Origin: Lentisphaerota bacterium
GTDB taxonomy: Bacteria; Verrucomicrobiota; Lentisphaeria; Victivallales; Victivallaceae
Assembly: GCA_015061805.1 (NCBI GenBank)
Contig: SUVV01000010.1
Location: 1 to 64,000, forward strand
Length of the DNA: 64,000 nt
Direction: 5' to 3'
Positions 44,999 to 59,242 of the stretch are shown in pieces. A program made the position numbers and the translations under genes. The notes under the pieces are model-generated. The model worked only from the letters and a program-made list of their open reading frames with translations, made no database searches and was not told the DNA's origin. Position 1 is the first letter of the stretch. Every line of letters starts with the position of its first letter.

Positions 44999-46912
44999 TC
45001 ATTTTACTTTCGGCATGAATATTGCAAAGGTGGTTCCGGAATTTTCAACGGAATCCAACTGGATCCATCCTTTGTGGTTGGCGATGATACCGTATGCCAT
45101 CGCCAATCCCATGCCGGTACCGCTGCCGACCGGTTTGGTGGTGAAAAACGGCTCAAATATCCGGTTGGCTATTTCCGGCGGCATACCGCATCCGTTGTCG
45201 CGGATGACAATGGCAAGGTAATCATTAACGTCGGCATTTTCCAGATCACCGGGCGGCGGATTGAAAGATACGGGGCTTTCATTGGCAGTTACGGCAAAGA
45301 GTTCCAGTACCGGTTCAGCGGTGTTGCTGAGAGCATCAACGGCGTTGATAAGCATATTGATCAAGACCTGCTGCATTTGGAAAGTATCTGCAGAAATTTG
45401 CATTTCCGGATCGGGCAGCGTTATTTCAAATGAGATATTGCTCAATTTCTGCGGAGCGATCATCATGCGGCACTGTTCAAAAAGTTCATAGAGTTTGATT
45501 TCAACCACATGATATTTTCCTCTGCGGGCAAATCCGAGCATCTGACCGGTAAGTTTACCTGCCTGTTCAGCGACTTTTCCGATTTTTTCCAACTGCAGTT
45601 GCATGGCTTCAGCGTTGTTCCGGTTGAAAATAGTTGCCACATCGACATAACCTAAAATGGCATGGATGCAGTTATTGAAATCGTGAGCGATGCCGCCGGC
45701 GAGAATACCCAGAGATTCCAGCCGTTGTGAATGGTTGAGCTGTTCGGTAAGAGCTTCACGTTCTCTTGCCAATTCTCTTTCTTTGGTGACATCTCTGGCG
45801 GTCATCACGAATATCCGGCGGTTGTGCAGCTGTATCGGGAAAATCGAACTTTGGAGTATTTTGTTCTCATTTTCAGAAATTTTTGCAATGCATCCCAGAT
45901 GAAGCGGTGCGGAAATATTTACCGGAAGTTCAAAATTTCCGCCGTTTTCCAACTCCAGAAGTTTTTCCAGCTTGACATTGGAAACGTTTCCGTTTTTGAA
46001 ATTTTTGAATAACTCTTTAGCGGCGATATTGGTATCGATTATTCTGCCGGCATCGTCGCAGGTGATGATGATTTCGGTGGAGTGATCGAATACGGCATGA
46101 AAACGGTTCTGCCACTCCTGCAGATGTTTTTCGGTTTCCTGAAGTCTGCCGTAACTTCCGAAAAATGCAAATACGAAGTCAAGTACACCATTACTGCGGT
46201 TGTCGGAAATTTCGTTTTCAAACCTTTCGATGTAGATTACCAGCATTACCGCCAGGATCATTACCGCGCATAAACGGGCGTAAAAATCACCGTTGAATAC
46301 CTGACTCAATCCGTCGCCGGCAATTCCGGAAGCCAGAGAGGGTATGAGTCCTGCCAGAAGCGTAAACGGCAGCGACAGCATGATCGACCATCTCCTTGAA
46401 AATCCGAAACTCAACCAGCGGTTGTAGATGACCGGCAGACACAGCAGTTCAAAGAAGTGTGATACTGAAAGCAGATTCACCGTTGCCCGTCCTGAACTCA
46501 AAAGCGCTTCCAGAGCGCCGCCGTAAAGACCGGGGAAAAGTGAAAATCCGGTCCAGTCACACTGCAGTCTGGTGATTTGTCCCATGTAGATATAGATGAG
46601 AAATGCTGCAATGATTCCGAGCAATACCCGCTGTGCGGTCAGGATTCCCTGCATGATGTAGACCAGCAGAAATGCAGTAAGTGCCGGCAGACCGATCGCG
46701 ACCTCTCCTACCCGGAAGGTTTCATTTCCCCATAGCATCACCCGGATATCCGCCGGAGCGATCCAGCGGTCAAAGGTAAAGAGCAATGCAATGATCATAA
46801 TGAATGCGCTTTCACCGATGACCTTGCGCTGATGATAAAGTGCAAGCAGTACGGTAAAGAGAAACAGCATCTCCATACCGACCATTGAAAGAGCGTAAAT
46901 ATGTTCCAGCAT
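44999..46912 (-). CDS. Membrane PAS sensor histidine kinase
   Basis: A 637-aa hybrid of an N-terminal multi-pass membrane domain (about six to seven helices in residues 8-232), a PAS domain (about 262-380, FHAVFDHSTEIIITCDDAGR), a HisKA dimerisation helix with phosphorylated His410 in GGIAHDFNNCIHAIL, and an HATPase domain (IRDNGCGMP, FEPFFTTKPVGSGTGMGLA). HDFNN is the NtrB/HPK4-like H-box. No receiver or response regulator gene is adjacent. It lies 20 nt after murA, so kinase and cell-wall enzyme are co-transcribed. Confidence 0.9.
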   Translation of the reverse strand: MLEHIYALSMVGMEMLFLFTVLLALYHQRKVIGESAFIMIIALLFTFDRWIAPADIRVMLWGNETFRVGEVAIGLPALTAFLLVYIMQGILTAQRVLLGIIAAFLIYIYMGQITRLQCDWTGFSLFPGLYGGALEALLSSGRATVNLLSVSHFFELLCLPVIYNRWLSFGFSRRWSIMLSLPFTLLAGLIPSLASGIAGDGLSQVFNGDFYARLCAVMILAVMLVIYIERFENEISDNRSNGVLDFVFAFFGSYGRLQETEKHLQEWQNRFHAVFDHSTEIIITCDDAGRIIDTNIAAKELFKNFKNGNVSNVKLEKLLELENGGNFELPVNISAPLHLGCIAKISENENKILQSSIFPIQLHNRRIFVMTARDVTKERELAREREALTEQLNHSQRLESLGILAGGIAHDFNNCIHAILGYVDVATIFNRNNAEAMQLQLEKIGKVAEQAGKLTGQMLGFARRGKYHVVEIKLYELFEQCRMMIAPQKLSNISFEITLPDPEMQISADTFQMQQVLINMLINAVDALSNTAEPVLELFAVTANESPVSFNPPPGDLENADVNDYLAIVIRDNGCGMPPEIANRIFEPFFTTKPVGSGTGMGLAMAYGIIANHKGWIQLDSVENSGTTFAIFMPKVK

Positions 46913-51170: not shown

Positions 51171-52106
51171 TCACCATGCTTTCCAGAAGTTGTTGTAGCG
51201 GCTTAGAACAGCCTTATCTGAAGAGCTGCGATCGGCATAAGGCGGAATGTCACGCAGCAAAATATCACTGGCATGTCCGTCTGCATAGGTCAGATTTGCT
51301 TTTTTCATATGCCGGAAACCGATATAATTCAGTCCGGTGACGTGAGTACGGATTTCGTTGTCGCCATCACCTCCGCTATCCAATCCGGTTCCTTCAATAA
51401 GTATCGGCGCTTTAGAGGTATATTTGATTTTGTTGAGTTTAGGTGCAAAATCCAAACCATTGCTGCCTGATTTAGCTGAAACAAATCTGATCCAGGAAAT
51501 CGAGTTGGAAGAATTCACTCCTCCGGAGTAAGTCCGGCGCGTACAGCCGGCATAGATCGGATTGGAACCGTATTTCATATCACCTTTAGCCGCCGGCATA
51601 TTTGGAGATATATATTGTGCGGTCAATTCCCAGTGATATTCATAAGGAAAACTTAAACTTTTTCTTCTTACATAGGGAAAGTAATCATCGTTATCATTAG
51701 TATACATCAAATGGTACGCCATATACTGCTTCAGATTGTTCGAACAACTGGAAGATTGTCCGCGGGCCCGTGCATTCTGCAGTGCCGGCAGCAGCATGGC
51801 AGCCAGAATTGCTATGATCGCGATAACCACCAGCAGTTCTATTAAAGTGAAAGGCTTTATGGGAGAGGGGAAAAACTTCTTTTCACGGGAAAAGAGGTTT
51901 TTCCCCTCTCCCAAACCCTCTCCCCTTTTCAAGAAAAGCGGGGTATTTTTAAGAGATTCGATCAAGCCCGACCAACGGGATGGGCGCGACACTCCCGAGG
52001 CGGCACGTTTGCCGCTCAAGAAAAGCGGAGCATTTTGCGGCTTCCGTTGGTCGCCGCCGGATTCCGGCATCAATGATCGATGCCCCGAAAAGGTAAAGTA
52101 CGCCAT
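51171..52106 (-). CDS. Prepilin-type H-X9-DG protein with double repeat leader
   Basis: A 311-aa pseudopilin-like protein. [16 protein letters not shown] begins at residue 86 (Glu90 is the +5 Glu), again after Pro instead of Gly. The 85-residue leader contains two related segments: [11 protein letters not shown] (24-34) and [17 protein letters not shown] (54-70), the latter continuing [12 protein letters not shown] as in the other prepilin gene. The C-terminal [16 protein letters not shown] fits H-X9-DG. GAAAGGA lies 6 nt before the ATG, supporting the long leader as real. It is the first gene behind the cobalamin riboswitch and heads the operon with the DUF4838 gene. Confidence 0.82.
51841..51946 (-). 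repeat. Palindromic element, copy E (inside a prepilin gene)
   Basis: The 52-nt palindrome (51861-51912) equals the reverse complement of copy D base for base. Flanks also match: ATTAAAGTGAAAGGCTTTAT on one side and CCCTTTTCAAGAAAAGCGGG on the other. Beyond the flanks, the two prepilin genes differ at many synonymous positions. Confidence 0.85.
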
Positions 52107-52138
52107 TGTTTTTTCCTTTCATGTTATGCGCATTTACA

Positions 52139-52253
52139 GTACCGGCTCTTCCGGTACATGCCGTGGCGGAGATCTGACTCGGTCAACACTTTTGACCACA
52201 CAGTTGCGCAACAGTCCAGGATTCACACCTGATTCATCCGTTGATTCCACGAC
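52139..52253 (-). ncRNA. Cobalamin riboswitch
   Basis: Read on the minus strand. P1 is closed by GUCGUGG (52253-52247) and CCACGGC (52166-52160), 7 bp with one G-U. The core contains GGUGUGAAUCC, GCGCAACUGUG and GAGUCAGAUCUCCGCC, the conserved cobalamin-riboswitch boxes in the right order. The peripheral region is a short hairpin, GGUCAA/UUGACC (52196-52181), so it is a compact form. A perfect 7-bp hairpin, GUACCGG-aagag-CCGGUAC (52157-52139), follows and may be P13 or part of the expression platform. The ribosome-binding site and ATG of the prepilin-type gene come 20-33 nt later, which suggests translational control. Confidence 0.82.
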
Positions 52254-52265
52254 CGGATGTCGCCT

Positions 52266-52294
52266 AATATACACCGCAATAAAACTTGATTCAA
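52266..52294 (-). promoter_or_regulatory. Promoter of the riboswitch-prepilin-DUF4838 operon
   Basis: On the minus strand TTGAAT (52294-52289), 17 nt, TATATT (52271-52266). The start would be about 52259, a few nucleotides before the riboswitch P1 stem. Its -35 overlaps that of the divergent phosphatase promoter. Confidence 0.75.
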
Positions 52295-52340: not shown

Positions 52341-52784
52341 ATGAAAATACTCTTTGTTTGTCATGGTAATATCTGCCGCAGTCCGATGGCAGAATTCGTA
52401 ATGAAAGATCTGGTTGAAAAAAATCACCGCCAAAACGATTTTTTCATCGCTTCAGCGGCGACCAGCCGGGAAGAACTGGGCAACCCGGTTTATCCTCCGG
52501 CACGCCGGATCATGGAACAGCACGGTATCGACTGCCGCGGCAAATATGCCCGGCAGATCACCATGCATGATTATGAGAAATATGATCTTCTTATCGGCAT
52601 GGATAAATACAATATCAACAATATGAAACGCTTTTTCGGCGGTGATCCGGAAAATAAGATCTCGCTGCTGCTTCAGTGGGCAAATATCGACCGGGAGGTT
52701 GCCGATCCCTGGTACAGCGGCGATTTTGAAGCGACCTGGCAGGATGTCAACACCGGATGTAAAGCGCTGCTCGAGCAACTTTGA
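52341..52784 (+). CDS. Low-molecular-weight protein tyrosine phosphatase
   Basis: A 147-aa protein with the P-loop CHGNICRS (Cys7 nucleophile, Arg13) and the general-acid loop ADPWYSGDF. This is the LMW-PTP family rather than arsenate reductase, because DPWY is intact. In bacteria such enzymes often oppose tyrosine kinases in exopolysaccharide export, but no such kinase is visible here. AAAGGAA precedes the ATG. The stop is one base from the stop of the convergent lipoprotein gene. Confidence 0.9.
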   Translation: MKILFVCHGNICRSPMAEFVMKDLVEKNHRQNDFFIASAATSREELGNPVYPPARRIMEQHGIDCRGKYARQITMHDYEKYDLLIGMDKYNINNMKRFFGGDPENKISLLLQWANIDREVADPWYSGDFEATWQDVNTGCKALLEQL

Positions 52785-53066: not shown

Positions 53067-53273
53067 TTATTTTTGGGGCGGATGGACTTCATCCATCCGC
53101 TCCTTGATTTTGCATACTTCATCATGACAGGGACATTTGTCCTGACGGTCGGAACAATCCCGGTAACTTACCTTGCCGGAAAGTACTATCTCGATCTTGG
53201 CAAGCTGCCGGTTGAGTGTCCAGAATCCACCCAGCAATACGATGATGAGCATGATCCATTCATGGGTTGTCAT
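53067..53273 (-). CDS. Small single-pass membrane protein (holin/spanin-like)
   Basis: A 68-aa protein starting MTTHEWIMLIIVLLGGFW: one N-terminal transmembrane helix, then a polar tail with four Cys (DCSDRQDKCPCHDEVCK). It lies between the HDxxY gene and the lipoprotein gene. Size, topology and position fit a phage lysis-module protein, without family-level evidence. AAAGGAG lies 9 nt upstream. The first 15 nt of the gene equal those of the preceding gene. Confidence 0.65.
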   Translation of the reverse strand: MTTHEWIMLIIVLLGGFWTLNRQLAKIEIVLSGKVSYRDCSDRQDKCPCHDEVCKIKERMDEVHPPQK

Positions 53274-53689
53274 CAGAGATTTTCTCCTTTAATTTTTATA
53301 TGATATTTTTTATCTCTCCATGCGGGTTTCCCGGCAGTACGGAGCAAGTCGTAGTACCGGAGCGCTTTGCGGCGGTTCCAGTAGCGCAAAGGATTGTACC
53401 AGCCGTATCGGTCATGGACGGCAATCAGGCAGTTTGCAAGAAATTCATCGTCGGCACGTCTGCGGTCATTTTCGTCACCGCCTAAAAAATAGCGGATATC
53501 GTGAATCATGCTCGGAATCAAAAACGCCGGATTGATGGCGGTGATAACATCGCACAGACCGCCCATCCACGCCGCACCGATGCCGTTACATTCGGCGACG
53601 GCACGTTCGGTATCAAGCAGAAGTTCCCAGCCGGAAAGTTTCAACCGGATTGCTTCGTGCAAGGCTTCGGTGATTTCATGGGTTGTCAT
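53273..53689 (-). CDS. HDxxY-motif phage-type protein
   Basis: A 138-aa protein. CNGIGAAW and IPSMIHDIRYFLGG followed by RRADDEFL give a glycine-rich loop, HDxxY and acidic residue in the order seen in phospholipase-A2-like and DUF1353-like viral proteins. No signal peptide or membrane helix. The start at 53689 (GAGGA upstream) is preferred to GTG at 53701. It overlaps the next gene by one base. Enzymatic function is unproven. Confidence 0.6.
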   Translation of the reverse strand: MTTHEITEALHEAIRLKLSGWELLLDTERAVAECNGIGAAWMGGLCDVITAINPAFLIPSMIHDIRYFLGGDENDRRRADDEFLANCLIAVHDRYGWYNPLRYWNRRKALRYYDLLRTAGKPAWRDKKYHIKIKGENL

Positions 53690-53697
53690 AATGTTCC

Positions 53698-55575
53698 TCA
53701 CAAATGATACGGCTGTTTGTGCGAAACGATATTGAAAAGATCGTCACCTCTGAAATCAGGCCCAAAATCGTCGCTGCTGGTAAGTTTTGAGTTCCAGACA
53801 GCCAATTGAGCGACATATTTCCATGAACTGTTACCCCCGCTGCAGCCGGGGACAAACAGAAACTCATCGTCGCCGCCCAGCGGAATCGTGTAAGGATGTT
53901 CTTCGACTTTCACCCCGTTTACAAACTCTTTGATGATATCGCTTCCGGCATCGTGAGTAAAAGCATGGTGATACCATTGCTTGTATACCGCATTTTCTGA
54001 TTTCGTACTTGCTTTAACCACGGCCGCTTCGTCAAGGTCTCCGGTTTCATCCCACTTTGTCCGGTTGACAATCACATACCCTCCCCACAGGTCGGGGCGA
54101 TTTTCAGCATTTAAGAACGACCAGAAATCCACCGAAAAGGAGTCCATCAACGGGAGTTTTTTGATAAGAATGGAACCTGCGTCGGATGAGAAATCCTTGA
54201 AGTACATCAGATTACTGGCGAAAATCGATGGAGCGTAAGATGTGTGGGTCATGACGTCGGTATAGTCATGACGCCGCATTTCGCAGTTTCCGGCTTCATC
54301 TATTACACTTCTGGCTTCTTGATCGTTCTGACCACCGTGAACACACCAATGGGTAAGGAGAACCAATCCACCCTCATAATTGTGGTTATTAGCACCGGAG
54401 CCGCGAATACCATTGCCGACATCCCGCGCTCTACCGTAAATAACATCATGCCCCGGTTCAGTACGATAAAAATATCTGCGCCCGATTTGTGGAGTTGTTT
54501 TATAGCCGCTGAGATAGGTGAAGTTATCGAGATTGCCTAACCAGTTGTCCGTTACAACAGCTTCCGCGCCGACTGCTTCATAAGAAGTTTCGGTGACATC
54601 AAGCGTTATTTCGAAAGATGCGCCCCAGTCAAAATCTTCAAAAGTGAAAGTACCGCTGGAGAGCTGCTCATTGCCGGTCAGGTACGTCACACCGCTGGAA
54701 TCGGTGGACTGGCTTATATGCCAATAACCTTCCTCGTATTCCTGATCATATTCTCCCCAAATGTACCATTCAGCGCTCTCGTGTTTGTAAATCCTACCGA
54801 ACGGTTTTTCAATACGTTCGGTTTCGGGTGTAACAAGGTAAGTTCCGTTGGCAGCAGAATATGCAACAAAATCCCCATCTTCCTCGCTGCCGATATCGGT
54901 CATGCCGGAAACAACGATTTGTGACAATCCGGTACATGCCGGATATTCAGGATGCCACGATACAAGCATACCGCTTTGAACTCCTGAATCCATCCTGTCG
55001 CCGTAAACCGGTTTGCCGTTTTGGTCAGCACCGACATACCCCATAATAATCTGATTTTCTCCGGCTGTTATAAAAGAGAGGTCGATATCGCCGCCGGAAC
55101 CTTTATCATAATTCAGTTCTTCGGCGACATATCCGGGAGTGATGGTGACGGATGAATCGGTTTCGGTGACGGTCGCTTCGGCAATGGTTTCCACGCGGTC
55201 AGCAGAAAGGAATCCTGCCGGAACGGTGACTTTGTTGGCTTCAATCACGGATGCGCCGCTTTCGGCAATGGTTTGAGAAAACGCTTCTGCAACGTAACCT
55301 TTGCCAACGGTGAAAGTGTTTTTATTGACGGACGGGGTGACGGTCTGAATATTTCCGGTGACTTTGTTTCCGTCAGCACCGACCGCCACGATGCCGGAAA
55401 GCATCGTGTCAGCAGTAACCGTAACACCGGAAAGGTCGATGTCACCGCTTTCGCCGCCGCCAACGGAGATGTTGCTGACAGCGGTGGTCATGCCGGAAAT
55501 AGAGAGTTTCCCGGTAACACCGGATTTGTCGCGGATGGCATCGGCAAGCGCCGTCATTTCACTATTGATACTCAT
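53698..55575 (-). CDS. Phage tail-fibre-like protein with LamG-type C-terminus
   Basis: A 625-aa protein. The N-terminus ALADAIRDKSGVTGKLSISG and the segment TMLSGIVAVGADGNKVTGNI are typical of tail proteins of gut phages. A repeated beta region follows (VTITPGYVAEELNYDKG). The last 200 residues (SFSVDFWSFLNAENRP, WYHHAFTHD, FVNGVKVEEHPYTIPLGG) look like a concanavalin/LamG domain for glycan or host binding. It is the largest gene of the cassette and the likely adhesin. The start follows GGGAG that overlaps the end of the preceding gene. Confidence 0.75.
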   Translation of the reverse strand: MSINSEMTALADAIRDKSGVTGKLSISGMTTAVSNISVGGGESGDIDLSGVTVTADTMLSGIVAVGADGNKVTGNIQTVTPSVNKNTFTVGKGYVAEAFSQTIAESGASVIEANKVTVPAGFLSADRVETIAEATVTETDSSVTITPGYVAEELNYDKGSGGDIDLSFITAGENQIIMGYVGADQNGKPVYGDRMDSGVQSGMLVSWHPEYPACTGLSQIVVSGMTDIGSEEDGDFVAYSAANGTYLVTPETERIEKPFGRIYKHESAEWYIWGEYDQEYEEGYWHISQSTDSSGVTYLTGNEQLSSGTFTFEDFDWGASFEITLDVTETSYEAVGAEAVVTDNWLGNLDNFTYLSGYKTTPQIGRRYFYRTEPGHDVIYGRARDVGNGIRGSGANNHNYEGGLVLLTHWCVHGGQNDQEARSVIDEAGNCEMRRHDYTDVMTHTSYAPSIFASNLMYFKDFSSDAGSILIKKLPLMDSFSVDFWSFLNAENRPDLWGGYVIVNRTKWDETGDLDEAAVVKASTKSENAVYKQWYHHAFTHDAGSDIIKEFVNGVKVEEHPYTIPLGGDDEFLFVPGCSGGNSSWKYVAQLAVWNSKLTSSDDFGPDFRGDDLFNIVSHKQPYHL

Positions 55576-55577
55576 AA

Positions 55578-56279
55578 TCACCAACTCCCATTCAAAATCG
55601 CTTCATCAACATAGGCTTTGATTTCGGCTTTGTCCTCTTCTGTCCAGTAATCAGTTCCTTTGACCGGGGTGTAACCGTCTTCACCATCTTTACCGCTGAC
55701 AGAAAAGTGTTCTTTCAAATCATTGAAAATCGCTTCACCTTTGGCGTTGAGCAGTGCTTCAGTTTGAATTGCGGTATAATATTCCGGATCATTGACCACA
55801 TTTTCGTCGCCGCCACCGAGATAGACCCGACTGCGGATAGTCAAATCAAATTGCCACGCGAATACTGTCAATCCCCCGGCATCAACGCCTCCGATTTCTG
55901 CGCGGAAATCGGCACTGGGCTGTCCGGCAAGCACTTCAACCACAGCATCGGTATGATTATGTGTAAGTTCGATCACCAGAATCGTATGACCGGCGCTGTC
56001 GGTTTCAAAAGAAATCCCGCTGTATTTGAGCAATGCCGGAACATTGGAATTACCGTTTTTGCTGTCCAAGGCGAAATAATTTGCACAATCGCCAAGTTCT
56101 TCCGGAGAAAACACCGGAAGTTCTCCGTCTGCTTTGCCCATATCCCGGCGCAGATCGAATTCCAGTCTGGCGGCGGTACCGAGCATCAATTCCAAAGTAA
56201 CGCCGTTTTCAGAACCGTATTCGTCAGTCAGACGCGTGCCGCCGGTACCGATTTGTAAAATAGAGTGTAAAACTTGCAT
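55578..56279 (-). CDS. Phage tail-type protein with collagen-like end
   Basis: A 233-aa protein ending GKDGEDGYTPVKGTDYWTEE, a short collagen-like GxxGxx stretch followed by the YTPVKGTDYWT box found at the end of many Gram-positive phage baseplate/upper tail proteins. The N-terminal part (LELMLGTAARLEFDLRRD) resembles their head-binding beta domain. Likely links fibre to baseplate. AAGGA precedes the ATG. Confidence 0.68.
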   Translation of the reverse strand: MQVLHSILQIGTGGTRLTDEYGSENGVTLELMLGTAARLEFDLRRDMGKADGELPVFSPEELGDCANYFALDSKNGNSNVPALLKYSGISFETDSAGHTILVIELTHNHTDAVVEVLAGQPSADFRAEIGGVDAGGLTVFAWQFDLTIRSRVYLGGGDENVVNDPEYYTAIQTEALLNAKGEAIFNDLKEHFSVSGKDGEDGYTPVKGTDYWTEEDKAEIKAYVDEAILNGSW

Positions 56280-56293
56280 AGATCATCCTTTCT

Positions 56294-57238
56294 TCAATCA
56301 ATATATTGATAATTTGGCGGAGGCAGATTTTCCCGGTTTATGAGAATTTCCGTAATATAGTCAGATTCAATCGCGTAAGCGTATTCGTATTTATCATTAT
56401 CGCGGTTGTAATAAGTATTGATGTTTTTAACAGTCAACGGATGCCACGGAATAAAATCACTTTGACTGCCCGAAAAATTTATCTCATAAGTTCCGACATC
56501 TTTCTCGTAGACCGTTTGTGCTTTATCATCGGAGTCGTAAGGGTAAAGCAATTCTTTTCTTATTGAACTGATATTGTATTTTGCTTTCCAATTGCCTTGC
56601 AGTTTGGGGTAACAGATTTCACCGATTACAAATCTACGGTCAACGTGCCGGTGAAAATACCATTCTTTATATCTGGAATCGGCAGCTTGACCGTAGACAA
56701 ATTGGTACTGACCATCATACGTTACAACTGCATTGCCGGTTTCGATACTGACCCTTTCGGTTTTCATACTCTGGTCAAAATATTGGCTGTCAAGGTCAGT
56801 ACTTCCCAGTGCATAAATCAGAACATTGTTCAGCAGATGGTAACACGCCCGGACAAAATTTCCGTCGCTGAATTTGTGCGGTTTCTGCCAGAAAAAACCG
56901 GCAGGGTCGATTCCGGCAGAAGCCAATTCTCCGGCAATGGCAAGGTCAAGTTCATCCGCTGAATAATCTCCGTAAGGATGCCGTTTCGACCATTTCCCGA
57001 AGTTGGCAACCGGGAAGTGGCGTTTATACAACCCCCGAATACCGGAACGGATGTTGTCAAAAAGATTGGCGTGATTGTCAGACGTCATGAAACTGCGGCG
57101 TCGCGGTAACGGGAGAACACCCAAACCGGGAAAATTAGTAGAAATCGGGTCGGTGTAACGCAACCGTTCCAATATGGCGGCGTTAATGCAATTAAAAGCC
57201 GGAATCATTTTACACGGCGGCATATCTGCCCAACTCAT
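56294..57238 (-). CDS. Uncharacterised phage-cassette protein
   Basis: A 314-aa protein I do not recognise. It is mixed alpha/beta with many aromatic residues (YFHRHVDRRFVIGEICYPK, YNRDNDKYEYAYAIESD). No membrane helix or signal. The ATG at 57238 has AAGGA 9 nt upstream and overlaps the preceding stop by 4 nt (ATGA). A structural or baseplate role is inferred from position only. Confidence 0.6.
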   Translation of the reverse strand: MSWADMPPCKMIPAFNCINAAILERLRYTDPISTNFPGLGVLPLPRRRSFMTSDNHANLFDNIRSGIRGLYKRHFPVANFGKWSKRHPYGDYSADELDLAIAGELASAGIDPAGFFWQKPHKFSDGNFVRACYHLLNNVLIYALGSTDLDSQYFDQSMKTERVSIETGNAVVTYDGQYQFVYGQAADSRYKEWYFHRHVDRRFVIGEICYPKLQGNWKAKYNISSIRKELLYPYDSDDKAQTVYEKDVGTYEINFSGSQSDFIPWHPLTVKNINTYYNRDNDKYEYAYAIESDYITEILINRENLPPPNYQYID

Positions 57239-58026
57239 AGAAACCAATCCTTCCCGAAATAGATTGTCCCACCGGAAGTGAAAGACTGATACACATCGCC
57301 GTTTTCGTAAATATCCCCGATTCTGACAGAAGCGAAATATCCGGCGGGCGAAGGCGTTCCATTGGGATCGTCATTGTCGCTGACACGCACAAACGTACTG
57401 TAAACGCCATCGTTGCAGCAAGCACAAAGATAGACATCCGCACCGCTCACATTTTCGGGCAGATAGACAAACTGTCTTGGAACTTTTTCTGCACCGGGAA
57501 GGTCAGTATCACCCGCGCGTGTGCTGTTTGCGTTGGATGTTATTTCCGGGTATGCGCCATTGTAAAGTTCGAAAGTGCGCTCTTTTATCCAACGCAGTTT
57601 GAATGTTCCGGTGTAATCTTCACTTGCTTTATTGCTGTTCATCATGACCCAGCCGGGATTGTTTTCATTGCCGCGATGCAATATCCGGTGTCTTCCCTTA
57701 TCGGATGCCGTAAGACCATTCTTTCCCGGAACCGCATAAATGCCGCCGCCGGAAGTGATAAAGGCGCGCACTACTCCGTTCAACACGATATTCCCGGCAG
57801 TTCCGGGGGCAATATCTTCTGCGGCAATGCCCCAGATACCGGAATCATCTGTCGCCGGTATAACTCCGAAAATAACCTGTTCATAACCGCCGCTGTTGAG
57901 TATCGTCCTGCCGGTCAGCGTTACCGCCGTACACGCCCGGATGGCGCTGCTGCCGGAATTATAGATCAAAAGCGTATTGCGGTCGGTGGAAGGATATGCC
58001 GGAGAAAGGTCATATTTTTCAAACAT
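57235..58026 (-). CDS. Uncharacterised phage-cassette protein
   Basis: A 263-aa protein. The first 90 residues (AIRACTAVTLTG, IWGIAAEDIAPGTAGNIVLNG) resemble small beta-barrel decoration or spike-type phage proteins such as DUF2190-like capsid stabilisers. The C-terminal half has a beta-rich YFASVRIGDIYENGDVY. Function not assigned. GAGGAAA precedes the ATG. Confidence 0.6.
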   Translation of the reverse strand: MFEKYDLSPAYPSTDRNTLLIYNSGSSAIRACTAVTLTGRTILNSGGYEQVIFGVIPATDDSGIWGIAAEDIAPGTAGNIVLNGVVRAFITSGGGIYAVPGKNGLTASDKGRHRILHRGNENNPGWVMMNSNKASEDYTGTFKLRWIKERTFELYNGAYPEITSNANSTRAGDTDLPGAEKVPRQFVYLPENVSGADVYLCACCNDGVYSTFVRVSDNDDPNGTPSPAGYFASVRIGDIYENGDVYQSFTSGGTIYFGKDWFL

Positions 58027-58051
58027 AATACTGTTTCCTCACTCTCTCCGG

Positions 58052-58882
58052 TCAAATATCCAGCACCGAAAAATTGCCGTAATCATAAACCCGGCTTTCG
58101 TAAACGCCGCAGTTGACCGTCGCATTGTTTACGGTGTCCCGGCGGGAAATCGACCAGATGGCATTCCACATTGATACGGCATTGATTGAAATACCATTGA
58201 TTTTGACCCGCTGTGCCGGACGGACGAGAAAGGTGTAGGTGATATCCACCAGTTCTTTTCCGGCAGTATTGGTGAACGGGTCACTCTGGACGGCGCTTTC
58301 AAACAGCACTTCCCCCGGCGCCCAGCGGTGGAATGTGCCGGAATTAAGTTTGCCTGCCAGCGAAAACAGATTTTTCCGGAAAGCAGTATTGACCTGTCTG
58401 GCAAAATAGGTAGCAACACAGATCTCTTTCAACTCCGGTACATTCACCAGTGTACCTTCGATCCCGGAATCACCATCCATTCTGCCATCCCAACCGATGC
58501 GGGTCCCGGGATCAGGCGGAACGATTTTTGGATTTCCCGGATAGATCCGTACCAATTCTTTGGCATCAAAGACCCGGACAGAATGATTTTTCACCTCAAA
58601 AGTCCAAATCCGTTCATTGCCCACCTTTTCTTCGACCGCTTCCGGTAAAGTGTAGTTCACCTCAAACTCATAGGTGCCGTTGCCGGGAATTTTTACCAGT
58701 TCAATGTTCTGTTTGCGGGCGCTGCCGACATAGGCAGGAGCGGTATTGCGAACCAATTCCAAGGCTTCGCTGCTCCGATCGAGATTGTCAGGGGAGTTGA
58801 CCTGATAGCTTAATTTTGCACCGGTACACTGTCCGGTGCGGCTGACTGTCTGTTTTGCTGAAAGTTTACGTTGTATTTGCAT
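58052..58882 (-). CDS. Uncharacterised first protein of the phage-like cassette
   Basis: A 276-aa protein starting MQIQRKLSAKQTVSRTG, not recognised; beta-rich (GNGTYEFEVNYTLP, IWTFEVKNHSVRVFDA) and ending VYESRVYDYGNFSVLD. A baseplate or tail-tube-associated role is possible. The start at 58882 has AGGAGGT 4 nt upstream; the frame stays open to 59242 through repeat DNA, but that extension has no ribosome-binding site and reads through palindromic element F, so I exclude it. Confidence 0.62.
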   Translation of the reverse strand: MQIQRKLSAKQTVSRTGQCTGAKLSYQVNSPDNLDRSSEALELVRNTAPAYVGSARKQNIELVKIPGNGTYEFEVNYTLPEAVEEKVGNERIWTFEVKNHSVRVFDAKELVRIYPGNPKIVPPDPGTRIGWDGRMDGDSGIEGTLVNVPELKEICVATYFARQVNTAFRKNLFSLAGKLNSGTFHRWAPGEVLFESAVQSDPFTNTAGKELVDITYTFLVRPAQRVKINGISINAVSMWNAIWSISRRDTVNNATVNCGVYESRVYDYGNFSVLDI

Positions 58883-58930
58883 GGATACCTCCTGGTTATC
58901 CATACACCCTATCGTCAACATTTTTTTCAC

Positions 58931-59048
58931 GGAGCGATCTTGCTTTGCCGGAGCGCGCCTTGCGGCGTTCGATCCTCCAGTCACGTACACCAGTACGCTC
59001 CTGTCGGCTCTCACTTGCAAAACCCGCCCGGCTGTGCAAGATCGCTCC
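58931..59048. repeat. 118-bp element bounded by 13-bp inverted repeats
   Basis: GGAGCGATCTTGC (58931-58943) and its exact complement GCAAGATCGCTCC (59036-59048) bound a GC-rich interior. It sits in the leader of the phage-like operon. No target-site duplication is apparent. It could be a MITE-like insertion or a structured leader RNA. Confidence 0.5.
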
Positions 59049-59072
59049 TGATTCCGGGTGGCTTGTTTTGCG

Positions 59073-59220
59073 CCTGTCGTTGGGCTGAAGCCCAACAGGC
59101 GAAAAGTTATGCCGCGACATCGGAGCGGCAAAACACCCCCGCTTTTTTCGAAAGGGGTGGGGTGTGGGGAGGGGAAAAACTTTTTTTCTCGTGAAAAAAG
59201 GTTTTCCCCTCCCACAATAC
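59073..59220 (+). repeat. Palindromic element, copy F, with adjacent hairpin
   Basis: Hairpin GCCTGT/ACAGGC with inner TTGGGC/GCCCAA lies at 59073-59100. Then comes CCCCGCTTTTTTCGAAAGGGG and a 52-nt palindrome at 59164-59215 (arms beginning GTGGGGAGGGGAAAA, one indel), followed by CATCTCCCCCTTGTCGGG. It is downstream of the FKBP gene, antisense to it. Confidence 0.75.
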
Positions 59221-59242
59221 CATCTCCCCCTTGTCGGGACAC

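Follow-up and report, generated by a model that had tools for sequence, protein, structure and literature searches.

The leader at about 52263 to 52114 on the minus strand of the window, the 64,000-nucleotide stretch of Lentisphaerota DNA analyzed here, is a cobalamin riboswitch that most likely switches off translation of B12 uptake genes, and the natural continuation of its operon probably lies at the broken end of another contig, C34, the join that leads the riboswitch into a prepilin-DUF4838 operon in the window being most likely a misassembly. We put the probability of this reading as a whole at roughly 0.8. The case is built from the RNA and its covariation, its gene linkage across the family, the repeat at the junction and the contig ends within it, the orthology of the first C34 prepilin and the near-absence of TonB receptors. 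The initial annotation had placed a pseudopilin-DUF4838 operon under control of a cobalamin riboswitch; the sequence features that it described are all present, on the minus strand, and it is the target that probably does not hold. The features of the locus are collected in Table 1.

Table 1. Features of the riboswitch locus and its flanks, in window coordinates.
Feature	Position	Strand	Evidence or remark
DUF4838 secreted protein, 810 aa	48689..51121	-	PF16126, 108.6 bits
Prepilin-like ORF, 311 aa	51171..52106	-	TIGR02532, 21.3 bits (cut-off 16.3)
Dispersed in-frame repeat, suspected junction	51826..51992	-	about 45 copies in genome
Cobalamin riboswitch (aptamer and kissing-loop expression platform)	52114..52263	-	match to model R1
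Shine-Dalgarno-like GAAAGGA	52114..52120	-	7 nt before ATG at 52106; read from sequence
L13, UGCGCA, 3′ kissing-loop partner, directly 5′ of ribosome-binding site	52127..52132	-	pairs with L5
Junction helix P3, closes aptamer	52160..52253	-	GUCGUGG 52253-52247 / CCACGGC 52166-52160
L5, UGCGCA, 5′ kissing-loop partner	52205..52210	-	6/6 pairing with L13
Sigma-70-type promoter TTGAAT-17-TATATT	52266..52294	-	9 of 12; 3 sites against 0.5 expected
Low-molecular-weight phosphotyrosine phosphatase, divergent	52341..52784	+	conserved left flank of riboswitch locus

The minus strand reads from promoter through aptamer and kissing loop to the ribosome site, with transcription predicted to start a few bases 5′ of the aptamer. 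The same type of promoter precedes the riboswitch in four relatives (G033, G045, G049 and G031), and TATATTA is present in most others. The aptamer opens with P3, P4 (CAGG/CCUG), P5 with its loop L5 and P6; the AGUCAGA box follows, and after it come a GC hairpin and then AAAUGCGCAUAACAUGAAAGGAAAAAACAAUG. The core boxes AAUCC, GCAACUGUG, AGUCAGA and a GCCAC-like element lie within the P3-P6 junction, the arrangement that defines cobalamin riboswitches at the clan level. The 7-bp helix initially named P1 exists and shows changes on both sides in three of its seven pairs among relatives, though it is the junction helix P3, and there is no separate P1 or P2; the downstream hairpin ACCGGAAGAGCCGGU is likewise real, while half of the relatives are without it. 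The decisive feature, which the initial annotation overlooked, is the L5-L13 kissing loop; it is 6 bp long, and 6 nt separate it from the Shine-Dalgarno-like sequence downstream. Both the aptamer core and AACAUGAAAGGA at the Shine-Dalgarno-like site are nearly invariant in the alignment of 12 leaders.

At curated thresholds Rfam returns no match in the region, the leader lying below the gathering cut-offs of RF00174, RF01482 and RF01689. A relaxed scan recovers RF01482 (AdoCbl core) at 52168-52235 with 33.3 bits (E 2.5e-4, curated cut-off 50). The initial annotation had named RF00174 and RF01689 as the models to search with: RF00174 gives 19.5 bits (E 0.0078) against a cut-off of 31.5, its sole match in the 2.29-Mb genome, and RF01689 has no match anywhere in that genome. 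A freshwater-2 RNA match in the relaxed scan (E 2.4) was taken as chance. The covariance model R1, which was built from 12 leaders including that of the window, scores the window leader at 117.7 bits (E 3.7e-24), and only one riboswitch is detected in the window genome by the RF00174 and R1 scans.

In the 12-leader alignment, 97.6% of the cells are paired over 24 pairs, nine of which show changes on both sides; none of 500 shuffles was as good as the real alignment, and slid controls pair at 28-45%. The kissing loop is 100% paired in the 12 sequences and two of its pairs covary, L5/L13 occurring as UGCGCA/UGCGCA, CGCGCA/UGCGCG and CGUGCA/UGCACG. The folding energy of the single sequence is not special relative to shuffles (z -0.71), and it is comparative pairing, not folding energy, that places the leader beyond chance. 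Together with the relaxed RF01482 and RF00174 matches, this pairing bears out the initial assignment of the leader as a cobalamin riboswitch, from which we infer that it binds its ligand. The Rfam cut-offs left unreached and the shuffle-like folding energy would suit a decayed or chance look-alike without function, which is very improbable given covariation that includes the kissing loop, a nearly invariant core, and the promoter and ribosome-site spacing that accompany it.

With the kissing loop lying right against the ribosome site, and a search of the region for an intrinsic terminator negative, bound corrinoid most likely represses translation. A sensing role for the L5-L13 kissing loop has been described (PMC9600662). 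Corrinoid binding in the P3-P6 core is predicted to stabilize this loop just upstream of GAAAGGA-AUG, which would block ribosome loading, and with plentiful B12 the translation of the downstream genes would be off. B12 binding is thus most likely an OFF signal, both the direction of the switch and its ligand preference being predicted from the architecture.

R1 matches are present in 70 of the 78 genomes of the family (Lentisphaeria, diderm bacteria with many genomes from animal guts) and in 18 of 19 genera; a genome usually has one to three of them. By a motif-based reading, in which some gene calls are approximate, a prepilin was scored as the first downstream gene 54 times among 91 sites in the first pass and, with a looser motif, 56 times among 90 in the second; with four sites that were counted in the first pass only, prepilins come first at about 60 of 90 sites, in at least 15 genera. 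Prepilins make up a few percent of genes, with at least 44 matches in the window genome (G000), 7 in G059 and 8 in G014. Binomial figures are overwhelming, yet they count related genomes as if these were independent, and the number of genera is the safer measure. Among the remaining sites six are followed by btuF-like genes by motif, and several further ones have what by eye resembles a btuF, btuC, cobalamin-synthesis or chelatase gene. Of 87 loci with a PF01497 binding-protein match, 35 have a prepilin that ends 29-165 nt before the match; where a BtuF-like motif is present, 28 of 66 loci are preceded by a prepilin, in genera g1, g2, g7, g12, g13 and g18.

The gene order in G014 is riboswitch-prepilin-btuF-btuC-btuD-cob genes. 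At L266 and L265 (G004 and G005) riboswitch and prepilin are followed by cobalamin-biosynthesis genes (precorrin-methyltransferase-like and CobD/CobC-like), an order from which it follows that a prepilin also heads B12 synthesis operons. A location upstream of B12 uptake or synthesis genes is therefore seen in relatives, and holds for the window genome on condition that its continuation is taken to be the C34 operon. In this lineage the riboswitch would control B12 uptake genes consisting of a pseudopilin, often a second pseudopilin, and a BtuF-like binding protein. At three sites within one genus (L276, L264 and L267 of G042, G056 and G060) the riboswitch match is followed by giant repeat proteins (SSSYAAVLEAGGNDRIVVTSGGTV...), which resemble autotransporter or surface proteins and possibly represent a second surface component of B12 acquisition.

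The prepilin ORF that follows the riboswitch in the window has an unusually long leader peptide, which is formed by the dispersed repeat. Copies of the repeat (for example L160:5625-6587, L158:3984-4916 and L159:4348-5373, and also L031:8083-9312) are found where many prepilin genes encode their leader peptide, and the FTLIELLV motif is often duplicated 5′ of the repeat, as if it spreads by insertion at this position; contigs are also broken and misjoined by it. Searches and sequence stretches were used to examine contig ends, and five other contigs end in the repeat: window positions 51941-51826 match the extreme end of C34 without a difference over 116 nt, and likewise the ends of C6 and C24 over 97 and 92 nt, respectively, while C4 and C9 end inside the repeat from the other side. 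Contig breaks inside repeats of about 100 nt are a typical outcome of short-read assembly.

The sequence of C34 opens within the repeat: a headless prepilin comes first, then a second prepilin and btuF. The first C34 prepilin shares 82% identity with the riboswitch-linked prepilin of G050 and 80% with that of G033, and the second is 70% identical to the second prepilin of G033; the window prepilin reaches 36-41% identity with its best matches in the G050 and G033 riboswitch loci. In a tree of 69 prepilins, the first C34 prepilin groups with the riboswitch-linked ones (support 100/99) and the window prepilin falls in another clade, which includes prepilins beside DUF4838 genes (support 98/94). 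On the other flank, the divergent phosphatase adjoins the riboswitch in the window as well as in G033, G045 and G050. The assemblies of G031 and G049 also break between the riboswitch and the prepilin body.

Based on the repeat junction, the C34 orthology, the tree, the conserved flank, the breaks in G031 and G049 and the single riboswitch of the genome, we hold the prepilin-DUF4838 continuation to be chimeric. The ORF at 51171..52106 is probably a B12-type leader peptide joined via the repeat to a DUF4838-type pseudopilin body, so that a B12 leader has acquired the wrong body, most likely by short-read misassembly and less likely by recombination; DNA continuity between leader and prepilin body across 51826-51941 is doubtful. 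The continuation seen in the window would have been made through the 92-116-nt repeat, and the natural downstream genes in this genome would be the headless prepilin, second prepilin and btuF of C34. The contig has no break in the repeat, the reading frame is kept across it and about 45 copies could recombine, as they would if the join were genuine and recombination between copies had put the B12 leader before a prepilin-DUF4838 operon that is now B12-controlled. We consider this unlikely, given that the broken end of C34 holds the orthologous B12 operon without a leader, that the same gene is broken in the G031 and G049 assemblies, and that the arrangement is seen in no relative. Misassembly remains our preferred reading, and false operons can arise in metagenome assemblies from repeats that lie within prepilin genes.

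B12 control of DUF4838-mediated polysaccharide degradation, which the initial annotation had proposed, is rejected as the main reading on the basis of the repeat junction, the orthology and the tree. No riboswitch leads into a DUF4838 gene at any other site inspected in the 78 genomes, the window prepilin belongs to a clade in which DUF4838-linked prepilins occur, and in place of the pseudopilin-DUF4838 operon the likely true target is found where C34 breaks off within the repeat of the junction. The DUF4838 protein is probably outside the B12 regulon. It has no close orthologue in close relatives, only paralogues; a peptide-pattern scan of the genome contigs returned no DUF4838 relatives, and a whole-genome search then found paralogues that are at most 48% identical, many of them tandemly arranged in relatives. 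Such arrays, each of several DUF4838 genes, are present at G000 C26:35359-47654, G045 C74, G050 C93 and G033 C29, their copies being 44-48% identical to that of the window. Elsewhere in the window, a histidine kinase (44999-46912, minus strand) has a weak N-terminal match to VUPS, the "vitamin uptake-like sensor" (20.7 bits, cut-off 27). Phage-tail-like and LamG-domain genes occupy 53273-59242 on the minus strand, and homologues of several genes at about 55.6-59.2 kb adjoin the G033 riboswitch locus in the same order.

The window genome contains one btuF-like gene (C34), one FecCD/btuC-like permease gene (C14) and one B12-binding protein, the B12-dependent methionine synthase MetH. The BtuF-like protein matches PF01497 (Peripla_BP_2) with 61.1 bits (cut-off 27.5); the BtuF equivalog gives 64.9 bits (cut-off 234) and IsdE a slightly better 72.4 bits (cut-off 298.65), and since the equivalog scores fall below cut-off, the B12 specificity of the protein rests on gene context. 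TonB-receptor plug domains are absent in 77 of the 78 genomes and were found in one, by a search that was positive in the controls E. coli, Caulobacter and Bacteroides. Secretins occur in 77 of 78 genomes and BtuFC-like proteins in nearly all, and BtuB thus appears to be missing from a family in which secretin channels and pilins are abundant. No efficient passage of large corrinoids across an outer membrane is known without a TonB-dependent receptor.

The hydrophobic FTLIE helix is recognized by TIGR02532 in the first C34 prepilin (22.5 bits) as in the window gene (Table 1). The glycine at position -1 of the prepilin-peptidase site is absent in both (KPFTLIE, with Pro), and several other B12-linked prepilins have Lys, Arg, Asn or Ser there; because this position is not glycine, the proteins are called pilin-like. 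An AlphaFold prediction for the first C34 prepilin with 26 relatives has a pLDDT of 87.4, and all nine of the fold neighbours listed are pilins or a pseudopilus filament, the best being Thermus PilA4 (Z 5.6), with the XcpGHIJK pseudopilus at Z 3.3. Foldseek with the predicted fold gave no significant match (best E 0.23, top rows pilins), and a profile search of the PDB returned only the N-terminal helix of pilins plus marginal matches. No known ligand-binding fold was found for the C-terminal domain, and a corrinoid-binding site is not recognizable in it.

The family-wide linkage to prepilin and btuF-like genes fits the suggestion, also made initially, that B12 acquisition involves the pilin-like protein, and a pseudopilin regulated by B12 could plausibly serve the uptake of corrinoids without TonB. 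A more specific model, which we advance tentatively and at well under even odds, is that the B12-controlled pseudopilins form or load a pilus- or secretin-type device that would capture corrinoids outside the cell and deliver them to BtuF without TonB; as a general scheme, each pseudopilin may serve the substrate of its own operon. The main rival to pilus-based B12 uptake accepts the riboswitch-pseudopilin link as real and gives the pseudopilin no specific B12 role, a prepilin being a common first gene of operons that would act in export, anchoring or translational start-up. A place before btuF is in itself no proof of B12 function because pseudopilins precede many unrelated genes, many of the prepilins in G000 standing before unrelated secreted proteins; the lack of an identified ligand-binding residue in the pseudopilin, and of a relative of known structure for its C-terminal domain by sequence, points the same way. 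Prepilins nevertheless come first at most B12 sites yet are a small share of genes, the link persists in the prepilin-poor genomes G059 and G014, and the tree shows the B12-linked prepilins clustered (14 label changes, where shuffles give 23.3 and none of 500 is as low). On balance, we regard a generic operon-start role as a strong contender that falls somewhat short of an even chance.

The leader shares with the cobalamin riboswitches of clan CL00101 (RF00174, RF01482 and RF01689) the core boxes, the P3-P6 four-way junction, the L5-L13 kissing loop and, in Victivallaceae, a location upstream of btuF, btuC or cob genes; it differs in being very compact, with neither P1/P2 nor an accessory arm after P6, in scoring below the curated cut-offs and in having a prepilin as its usual first gene. 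A BtuF-like protein and a FecCD-type permease, riboswitch-linked in many relatives, are common to this lineage and the E. coli BtuB/TonB-BtuFCD system, from which it is set apart by the near-absence of a TonB-dependent receptor plug and by the pseudopilin that heads the operon. The pseudopilins resemble those of type II secretion and type IV pilins in their N-terminal helix and probably in their predicted fold, in a family where secretins are nearly universal, and differ from known pilins in the large C-terminal domain and in B12 regulation. The nearest precedent is in Planctomycetes of the same superphylum, where dextran binds to pili-like fibres with a suspected role in uptake (PMC5394234); the substrate is a polysaccharide there and a vitamin here, and no riboswitch link has been reported for those fibres. 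Our literature search found no paper that links cobalamin riboswitches to pilins in this way. The kind of riboswitch is already known, while a regulon in which the first gene is most often a pseudopilin, in a family where TonB receptors are almost absent, appears to be new, and the route of B12 across the outer membrane in Victivallaceae becomes a directly testable question.
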